Of a DNA stretch of 64,000 nt, positions 16,334 through 18,320 are shown in pieces. Below the pieces are notes generated by a model. That model did no database searches. It saw nothing but the letters and a program-made list of their open reading frames with translations, and was not told where the DNA came from. Numbering within the stretch: the first letter of the stretch is position 1; every line of letters begins with the position of its first letter. Source of the DNA: Thermococcus onnurineus NA1 (GTDB lineage: Archaea; Methanobacteriota_B; Thermococci; Thermococcales; Thermococcaceae); the NCBI RefSeq assembly GCF_000018365.1, contig NC_011529.1:1178001-1242000 (forward strand). Reading direction: 5' to 3'. A program made the position numbers and the translations under genes.

Positions 16334-17008
16334 ATGGTGAAGGTGAGGTTTTTGGGCCACGCTGCTTTCGAGATCGTCGGAAGCAAAAGGATTCTGATAG
16401 ATCCCTTCCTGACCGGCAATCCTGCAGCTGCCGCAAAGCCTGAAGAGCTCGAAGCAGACCTGATTTTAATAACCCACGCCCACGGTGACCACATTGGTGA
16501 CGCCGTAGAGATAGCCAAAAGAACTGGTGCCAAGATAGTCGCCATGTACGACATAGCCAATTACCTTGTCGAGAACAACCCTGGTATAACAACTATCGGA
16601 ATGAACTATGGTCCGACCGAGGTTGATGGGGTCAAGATAGTCCAGGTTCCAGCCTGGCACTCCAGCAGCGATGGTAAGTACAGCATCGGAAACGCCTGCG
16701 GCTACGTAATCGAGCTCGATGGAGTCAAGATATATCACGCCGGCGACACCTTCGTGTTCAAGGACATGGAACTCCTCAACGAACTCTACGGGCCGATTGA
16801 CCTGGCTTTACTCCCGATAGGTGGTCACTTCACGATGGGACCGAAGGAGGCCGCAAAGGCTGTGGAGCTTCTTAAGCCGAGGAAAGTCGTTCCGATGCAC
16901 TACAACACCTGGCCACCGATCGCCGCGGACCCGGAAGAGTTCAAGAAGCTCGTCGGGGACAAGGCGGAGGTCATCATCCTCAAACCGGGCGAGATCCTGG
17001 AACTTTGA
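16334..17008 (+). CDS. Metallo-beta-lactamase-fold hydrolase (UPF0173)
   Basis: A 224-residue metal-dependent hydrolase. The di-metal site is seen as THAHGDHIGDAVE, with further ligands in VPAWHSS, YHAGDTFVFKDM and VVPMHYNTWP. This matches the UPF0173 family, found widely in archaea and bacteria and of unknown substrate; esterase or phosphodiesterase activity is possible but unproven. Start: ATG at 16334 after GGAGGTGATGAC, a near-perfect ribosome site. A TATA-like GATTTAAGTAAG at about 16288 serves it. It is transcribed away from the acyl-CoA synthetase operon, and ends 45 bases before the next gene on the same strand. Confidence 0.9.
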   Translation: MVKVRFLGHAAFEIVGSKRILIDPFLTGNPAAAAKPEELEADLILITHAHGDHIGDAVEIAKRTGAKIVAMYDIANYLVENNPGITTIGMNYGPTEVDGVKIVQVPAWHSSSDGKYSIGNACGYVIELDGVKIYHAGDTFVFKDMELLNELYGPIDLALLPIGGHFTMGPKEAAKAVELLKPRKVVPMHYNTWPPIAADPEEFKKLVGDKAEVIILKPGEILEL

Positions 17009-17053
17009 AAAACCTTTTAAGGAGCTTTCCCCACTCTTTTTTCAGGTGATAAA

Positions 17054-18052
17054 ATGGTTAAAAGGGCCATTGCCTTGGTGCTCATCCTGTTCATGGTTTC
17101 ATCCCTCACACTGCCCCTCTCCGCCGCTCAAGAGGAGACCCCAAAATACGACCTGATAATCGTGAGGAATGATGATCTGATAGATTACATCGTGGCGTGG
17201 CCCTACGCCAAAATGCTCGGTGTCCCTATTCTGCCTGTCGATCCGAAGGAACTCGATCCTGGAACGCTGGCCCAGCTCCAGTCCTACGCTCAGTTCGGCT
17301 GGAGCCATGTACTTATCATAGGAGACTCTCAGGCCGTAAGCAACGAGGTTCAGGACGAACTGCTGAACATAGGCTTTGTGGTCGAAAGGATAGGTGGGGC
17401 CGTTAGAACAGAAACCGCCGCAAAGCTGGCCCTCCATTTCTACCCCAACGGCGCGGAGACCGTTGTTGTCGCAAGCTCCAGTGATTACGGTTCGGCTCTG
17501 GCGGCAGCAAGATGGGCAATGAACTATGGCGATCCTCTGCTCCTCACACAGGAGGACGCTCTGTCAGACTCAACGGCCAACGCAATACAGAAACTCAACC
17601 CAGATCTTGTCATCCTGATCGGTGCAGGAATGTCAAAGGATGTCCAGAAGAAGATAGAGTCCCTGGGCTACGAGACCTACTGGGTGAAGGAGAACATAGA
17701 GATAACCGTGCCCAAACCTGAAGAAGGAACTAACTGGGTCATGGTCATCGCTGCGGTGATGTTGTCTCTGGCAGTCGCAGTGCCGGTTTCGCTCTACTAC
17801 GCCAAGAAGCGCTGGGCGGCAAACAAGGTGCCTATCGAGGTTCTCACCGAGAAAGAGCGTATAGTTGTCAGGGCAATCCTTGAGAGGGGCGGGATTGTCA
17901 AGCAGGAAGAGCTTCCGGAGCTTACCGGCTACTCAAGGCCAACGATAAGCAGAATCATCCAGGAACTCGAGAAGAAGGAGCTCGTCACAAGAGAAAAGGT
18001 CGGGAAGACGTTCATCGTCAAGCTAACGAAAGAGATAGTAATCAGAGACTAA
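17054..18052 (+). CDS. Membrane-spanning regulator: extracellular CW-binding-like domain plus cytosolic winged helix
   Basis: The 332 residues begin with a signal peptide (ALVLILFMVSSLTLPLSAA), continue with about 190 residues resembling putative cell-wall-binding repeats of the CW_binding_2 type (SHVLIIGDSQAVS, GAETVVVASSSDYGSALAA, DLVILIGAGMSKDVQKKIE), cross the membrane at about 229-251 (VMVIAAVMLSLAVAVPVSLYY), and end in a cytosolic winged helix-turn-helix (LTEKERIVVRAILERGG ... GYSRPTISRIIQELEKKELV). The layout is that of a one-component receptor that senses something at the envelope and acts on DNA, or a precursor from which the DNA-binding part is cut. The target genes are unknown. Start: ATG after CAGGTGATAAA. 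Confidence 0.8.
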   Translation: MVKRAIALVLILFMVSSLTLPLSAAQEETPKYDLIIVRNDDLIDYIVAWPYAKMLGVPILPVDPKELDPGTLAQLQSYAQFGWSHVLIIGDSQAVSNEVQDELLNIGFVVERIGGAVRTETAAKLALHFYPNGAETVVVASSSDYGSALAAARWAMNYGDPLLLTQEDALSDSTANAIQKLNPDLVILIGAGMSKDVQKKIESLGYETYWVKENIEITVPKPEEGTNWVMVIAAVMLSLAVAVPVSLYYAKKRWAANKVPIEVLTEKERIVVRAILERGGIVKQEELPELTGYSRPTISRIIQELEKKELVTREKVGKTFIVKLTKEIVIRD

Positions 18053-18125
18053 CGGTCAGCAAGCCCGAACCGCTCATCACGGTTCAGACCCTTAATCTTT
18101 TCTTCATCCCAGAAAAAGGGAAGAA

Positions 18126-18272
18126 TCAGGCCTTTCTGAAGAGATGGCCGTGCGCTTTGTTGATGTGCCTCACATAGTCCTTGCTCTTGCGGAAGACCAT
18201 CCCGCACCTGGGGCAGCGGAAGTAGAGCTCTCCGTCCCTGTCCTTGAACTTGATGGCCTTCAACACCGCCAT
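18126..18272 (-). CDS. Single C2H2 zinc-finger protein, 48 residues
   Basis: A short gene with the ribosome site GGTGGAGGAG directly before its ATG. The product reads [20 protein letters not shown], then [20 protein letters not shown], then HGHLFRKA: one C2H2 finger with Cys pair C-P-R-C and a His pair (H-I-N-K-A-H) plus a basic tail. Similar one-finger proteins occur in Thermococcales and some archaeal viruses and are taken to bind DNA or RNA; the target is unknown. A TATA-like CTTAAAAATT read leftward lies near 18302-18312. It converges with the membrane regulator gene. Confidence 0.85.
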
Positions 18273-18320
18273 CTCCTCCACCCCCGTCGCTGGTAGGAGA
18301 TTGAATTTTTAAGCTTTATG

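Follow-up and report, generated by a model that had tools for sequence, protein, structure and literature searches.

Regulators that carry a DNA-binding domain and a membrane helix in one chain, the ToxR type among them with a single pass, form a class that has already been counted in Archaea, where Demey et al. (2023) listed 1,384 transmembrane regulators (TTRs) that are widespread and enriched in Thermococci (PMC10269533). In the ToxR family proper, a cytosolic OmpR-type winged helix (wHTH) is N-terminal and a periplasmic domain C-terminal. ArnR and ArnR1 of Sulfolobus acidocaldarius, archaeal membrane-bound one-component HTH regulators of surface features whose targets are archaellum and pilus genes, have been studied biochemically and possess an N-terminal HTH, a HAMP/sensor part and two C-terminal TM helices (PMC6396743). 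Archaeal sensing of the cell's own envelope has been little explored, ArnR being the membrane-bound case with biochemistry. A separate body of work concerns the CWB2 repeat of Clostridioides difficile surface proteins, a repeat required in three copies for anchoring to PSII (PMC4973711).

The protein described here, from Thermococcus onnurineus NA1, likewise unites a DNA-binding domain and a membrane region in one chain, so that as a class, the archaeal membrane one-component regulator, it is not new. It differs from ToxR in having a C-terminal wHTH of the MarR/DUF7343 kind and an N-terminal outer domain behind a signal peptide, the reversal of topology that the first-pass annotation had pointed out. 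ArnR is also arranged in reverse and has no outer CWB2 domain, whereas our protein has one mid-chain TM helix and a C-terminal wHTH. What sets it apart from known TTRs is a CWB2 outer domain, deep archaeal conservation, and a predicted operator with target genes. The earlier claim of novelty is accordingly too strong: archaeal transmembrane one-component regulators are known (ArnR/ArnR1 and the census of Demey et al.), but our literature search found no paper on a CWB2 outer domain in a transmembrane regulator, nor a regulon for one; a search on DUF7343 likewise found no paper. New here are the gene linkage to a nucleotide-sugar dehydrogenase (NSD) and DUF354, the co-loss of regulator and DUF354, and a shared promoter site.

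Architecture and conservation of the regulator

The gene is a complete ORF with an ATG start, 45 bp past the stop codon of the upstream hydrolase gene (Table 1; positions refer to the window, that is, the whole 64,000-nt stretch of DNA analysed). Pfam assigns CW_binding_2 (PF04122) with E = 2.3e-15 and 57.3 bits against a curated cut-off of 24.9; the best stretch covers residues 112-191, a further one lies N-terminal of it, and the PILL-like motifs PILP (58-61) and PLLL (161-164) are present. The C-terminal part scores above the curated cut-offs for DUF7343 (PF24034; residues 264-324, E = 1.1e-10, 41.7 bits against 27.6), MarR_2 (3.8e-7, 30.6 bits against 27) and MarR (8.7e-6, 26.0 bits against 24.6). 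Among PDB sequences, C. difficile Cwp6 (5j72, 3.8e-17) matches best.

Table 1. Features of the regulator gene and its upstream neighbour (window positions)
Feature	Position	Strand	Evidence
Predicted CWB2-TM-wHTH transmembrane transcription regulator (332 aa)	17054..18052	+	Pfam, ortholog alignment, AlphaFold2, Foldseek
Signal peptide, aa 1-25 (MVKRAIALVLILFMVSSLTLPLSAA)	17054..17128	+	Hydropathy 5-23
First CWB2-type repeat of outer domain, aa 32-111 (PILP, RNDDxIDY)	17147..17386	+	Pfam, PDB sequence match, AlphaFold2, Foldseek
Second CWB2 repeat of outer domain, aa 112-211 (RIGGxxRxxTA, PLLL)	17387..17686	+	Pfam CW_binding_2 112-191
Single membrane helix, aa 228-247, then positive YYAKKRW	17735..17794	+	Hydropathy, AlphaFold2
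Cytosolic winged helix, aa 264-326, DUF7343/MarR-like	17843..18031	+	Pfam, AlphaFold2, Foldseek
Recognition helix YSRPTISRIIQELEKK, aa 293-308	17930..17977	+	Conservation
BRE/TATA-like promoter GAAAAACCTTTTAAG of the regulator gene (own promoter)	17007..17021	+	Kept in most Thermococcaceae orthologs
UPF0173-type metal-dependent hydrolase (MBL fold), upstream neighbour	16334..17008	+	NF001911 E=4e-87

Hydropathy reveals two segments, 5-23 (the signal, with an MVKRA n-region and a SAAQ end) and 229-247 (the membrane helix). The YYAKKRW stretch that follows the latter has a net charge of +3, as does the winged helix, and the ectodomain one of -15; because an acidic ectodomain is set against a basic inner part, the positive-inside rule predicts an N-out/C-in chain. 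In an AlphaFold2 model built from a 6-sequence alignment (mean pLDDT 75, the folded domains mostly 80-96), residues 34-211 form two Rossmann-like alpha/beta domains, 228-254 a helix and 266-324 a winged helix. By Foldseek, the outer part resembles the CWB2 modules of C. difficile Cwp6, Cwp8 and SlpA (PDB 5j72, 5j6q and 7acz; E = 1e-8 for 5j72), with which it shares the fold and the motifs RxxGxxRxxTA and PILL-like P[ILV][LV][LV], and the inner part resembles MarR-type regulators. Two differences from these relatives are plain: there are two alpha/beta repeats per chain (32-211), not three, and a membrane helix and wHTH follow them; and unlike MarR, the protein is membrane-tethered and its cytosolic part lacks the flanking MarR dimerisation helices. 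The annotation's description of one chain with signal peptide, CW_binding_2-like outer domain, single helix and C-terminal winged helix is thus borne out by Pfam, hydropathy, AlphaFold2 and Foldseek, including the structure prediction it had proposed as a check, with the refinement that the outer domain comprises two CWB2-type repeats.

The annotation had also suggested looking for the same layout in other Thermococcales. It is found well beyond them: full-length orthologs occur in most of 94 Thermococcaceae genomes, in all six genera, and in the four other families of the Thermococci phylum (here equal to one class), and sampling across the archaeal domain recovered full-length relatives in many further families. 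At 20 non-Thermococci loci, the encoded chains comprise a signal segment, a pair of outer repeats, a single membrane helix and a wHTH. Because the layout is kept full-length in Thermococcaceae, in all Thermococci families and in other archaeal phyla, it is not a chance assembly. In family f20 (L122:4981, L123:6079, L124:4968), the regulator carries a VAQQGSERRPAEPKVAGSSPAGPA-like N-terminal extension that resembles a translated tRNA gene, and the true start is probably further in.

Mean pairwise identity among Thermococcaceae regulators is 87% for the wHTH and 96% for the recognition helix, compared with 75% and 64% for the two outer repeats, 75% for the juxtamembrane segment and 53% for the TM helix. 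The linker and signal are least conserved; the signal peptide, at 39%, is poorly kept in sequence but retains its property. Across 36 archaeal sequences, the invariant residues include D40, G90, A94, R112, R118, T121, A126 and P161 in the outer domain and E268, Q284 and L305 in the wHTH; R38 of the first repeat and S294, P296 and R300 of the recognition helix are each kept in 35. The suspicion that the C-terminal domain might lack DNA-binding residues fails because no other part of the protein is as well conserved as the wHTH. Judged by sequence comparison, the CWB2-TM-wHTH layout is an ancient archaeal family with a near-invariant recognition helix, new here, and the proposed role as a direct envelope-to-DNA receptor is well supported by the domains, the topology predicted from sequence and this deep conservation.

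Neighbouring genes and a shared promoter element

Within Thermococcaceae, the regulator gene is flanked by the MBL-fold hydrolase gene and a C2H2 zinc-finger gene, a neighbourhood that says little. The hydrolase-regulator synteny holds in genera g1, g4, g5 and g6, is re-arranged in g2 and is absent in g3. The small zinc-finger protein (18126-18275, minus strand) lies beside the regulator in most Thermococcaceae, even in the re-arranged g2. Either neighbour was considered as a partner and rejected, as neither is conserved beyond Thermococcaceae, whereas the glycan genes turn up again in other phyla. Just past the regulator stop codon, at 18053-18111 on the minus strand, there is a possible C/D box small RNA (snoPyro_CD, 25.9 bits, E = 0.017, below the gathering threshold of 45), the C/D-type motifs of which are conserved in this position in most Thermococcaceae genera.

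Outside the family, the neighbourhood is more telling. In the phylum of genome G177, NSD lies directly downstream of the regulator on the same strand in 14 of 18 testable genomes from 7 families (G338, G177, G398, G197, G115, G157, G269, G304, G372, G321, G399, G400, G235 and G402), and the same adjacency is seen in G136, a member of another phylum. NSD belongs to the UDP-ManNAc/UDP-glucose dehydrogenase family (TIGR03026, UDPG_MGDP_dh domains); searched genomes contain from 1 to about 5 clear PF03721 genes. The regulator belongs to a lipid-linked glycan operon in a third phylum (families f15, f33 and f49) and also in f63, which lies outside that phylum; its companions there are DUF354, a PF00953 GlcNAc-1-P-transferase-like gene and GT4, to which f15, f33 and f49 add a GT2 that is AglJ/PpgS-like where tested. 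DUF354 is a predicted glycosyltransferase-like family with poorly kept catalytic residues (PMC4520260). In T. onnurineus, NSD (UDP-ManNAc dehydrogenase NF040825, 813 bits against a cut-off of 750) and DUF354 are divergent neighbours, and this divergent pair, which recurs in Thermococcaceae, does not adjoin the regulator gene.

Regulator and DUF354 tend to be lost together. Of 74 good Thermococcaceae genomes, 65 have the two genes and 8 have neither; the regulator alone is absent in one (G076), and DUF354 alone in none (Fisher 6e-10, a figure inflated by genome relatedness). A single-gene MBL tree places the losses in at least four separate events, with a best estimate of 5-6. In G076, where the regulator is apparently absent, NSD and DUF354 are kept and the promoter element described below is nearly intact. 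The zinc-finger gene shares this loss profile because it disappears from the locus alongside the regulator. In regulator-less Thermococcus (L087-L092), both genes are gone as one block after the MBL gene.

NSD promoters of Thermococcaceae and of another phylum have GAAANNGTTT in common, placed just upstream of the TFB/TBP box, and a second block keeps a fixed distance from it. In the G177 phylum, the regulator-NSD gap contains two conserved blocks separated by a fixed 60-bp unconserved spacer. Block A (GGAANNGTTnGAAANNGTT) consists of two GGAANNGTT-like 9-mers 10 bp apart; block B is a partly palindromic TGAAANNGTTTCA followed directly by GGAAAGSTTAAAATA (BRE/TATA). Counting from block A, BRE follows at 87 bp in 12 of the 13 sequences, which represent several families, and at 88 bp in the thirteenth; A2 and B1 are 63 bp apart, near six helical turns. 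A pattern for the promoter-proximal B half gave exactly one perfect match per genome in 17 of 23 genomes, always at NSD, the 13 sequences from which it was derived being among these 17; in four of the 17, the regulator gene is away from NSD. The backward control gave few matches, in a handful of genomes. Because RNAalifold found no consensus pairs in the element and Rfam had no match there, it is more likely to act as DNA than as RNA, and an RNA gene or riboswitch was rejected.

In Thermococcaceae, GAAACCGTTTTCTGGAAAAGGCTTTTAT is found in NSD promoters; DUF354 promoters have GAAAGCGTTnTAAACGTT exactly 76 bp (77 in T. onnurineus) before the BRE GGAAA, together with AACCGTTTTTGGGAAACCCTTATA. The DNA between the blocks drifts: column identity there is 65%, whereas the blocks themselves reach 89% and 95%. 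Among the loci examined, the pattern AAANCGTTTTNNGGRAAA is confined to the NSD/DUF354 promoter, at 28 loci, and it has no match within the 64-kb window. The regulator's own Thermococcaceae promoter was rejected as an operator: only its BRE/TATA box and a ribosome-binding stretch are conserved. No recognisable element occurs in genus g3, where regulator, NSD and DUF354 are all present. When Thermococcus loci were scored with a matrix from the G177-phylum element, the T. onnurineus locus reached 12.3 bits, compared with 3 random matches of at least 12 in 4 Mb, and the G076 locus reached 19.5 bits, a score attained by no random match. The lower scores of many other Thermococcus loci reflect a spacer 1 bp shorter and a drifting left half of block B, so that the cross-phylum scoring is supportive, not decisive. 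In f33 and f49 (L109, L113, L158), TGAAATCGTATGAAA overlaps the regulator start codon, a possible half-site for self-regulation.

A candidate surface-glycan receptor and its alternatives

Our best reading, which we consider reasonably probable, is that the protein is a surface-glycan-sensing transmembrane regulator that acts on glycan-precursor genes, NSD and DUF354, through the promoter element. It draws on domains, sequence-based topology, conservation, neighbourhoods, co-loss and the conserved promoter element, all computed here. The outer CWB2 pair would face the surface layer and most likely bind a surface or lipid-linked glycan; this ligand is proposed by analogy, because anchoring in C. 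difficile needs three CWB2 repeats and the regulator has two. The membrane helix would pass the state of the outer domain to the MarR-like winged helix, most likely dimeric at the cytosolic face, and the wHTH dimer would most likely bind GAAANNGTTT(C) sites directly upstream of BRE/TATA at the UDP-N-acetyl-mannosamine-type dehydrogenase gene and the glycosyltransferase-like DUF354 gene. About 76-87 bp separate the second block from the box downstream of it, and since the A2-B1 distance approximates six helical turns, two dimers would therefore share one face of the DNA. Archaeal activators usually bind upstream of BRE. Because the B site is so placed, activation would be favoured over repression. 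The outcome would be feedback between surface glycan and the supply of acidic sugar precursor.

The evidence from which this is assembled could be divided differently, with the NSD/DUF354 element belonging to another regulator and the transmembrane protein controlling other genes, for example in envelope stress or those of secreted CWB2 proteins. We regard this as unlikely, though not negligibly so. It would account for the position of the Thermococcaceae gene, not near NSD/DUF354 but in a conserved block of MBL hydrolase and zinc finger, for the four G177-phylum genomes in which NSD has the element but no adjacent regulator gene, as another trans-acting factor would allow, for G076 with its genes and element and no detectable regulator, and for genus g3 with the converse. 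It fits less well with a regulator whose neighbours in separate phyla come from the same two gene families, with the independence of the four or more co-losses, and with a near-palindromic site of the kind expected for a wHTH.

Winged helices can also serve in protein contacts. A protein- or membrane-tethered scaffold that mainly anchors or organises the surface layer would make use of such contacts, the CWB2 repeats being anchors in Clostridia (PMC4973711), and T. onnurineus itself encodes secreted CWB2 proteins devoid of a wHTH; yet conservation peaks in the recognition helix and wing, with conserved S/T/R residues typical of DNA contact, and a conserved DNA element lies beside the linked genes, which makes a scaffold very improbable indeed. 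Release of the wHTH by proteolysis once the outer domain senses the envelope state, as in site-2-protease pathways, would be permitted by the single pass and short linker. It too is very improbable, given that no protease gene is consistently linked to the regulator in the loci read and that the conserved juxtamembrane segment of Thermococcaceae accords with a tethered coupling element.

Returning to the glycan-sensing regulator, a wider form of the proposal holds that tethered receptors throughout Archaea read surface glycan and set NSD and DUF354 expression through a bipartite operator of fixed geometry conserved across phyla. This we put forward tentatively, as falling a little short of an even chance. 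If true, it would amount to a one-protein feedback loop linking the archaeal cell surface to its biosynthesis. The family would gain a likely ligand class (surface glycan), candidate target genes (UDP-ManNAc dehydrogenase and DUF354) and a concrete DNA site, and the fixed spacing of an element whose spacer drifts would be informative about the way a membrane-tethered factor contacts DNA.

Related arrangements at other loci

Several loci resemble parts of the regulator. In four genomes (G157:C10:15834-17360, G115:C21:14823-16240, G269:C152:1097-3170 and G372:C56:3394-5536), a CWB2-only protein adjoins a separate TM-wHTH protein, as if the one-chain receptor also occurred in a split, two-protein form. 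The T. onnurineus genome encodes, at L072:2505-4786 (about C1:1004504-1006785), a secreted CWB2 protein that has no wHTH and is followed directly by a GT4-like glycosyltransferase gene, and two further secreted CWB2 proteins of this kind are encoded elsewhere (L003, L071). Two pairs stand in tandem at L070:1489-5996 (C1:527488-531995) of the same genome; in each, a secreted coiled-coil protein is followed by a protein with signal peptide, TM helix and wHTH (TrmB/DUF7343), and they look like ligand-receptor or co-component pairs.
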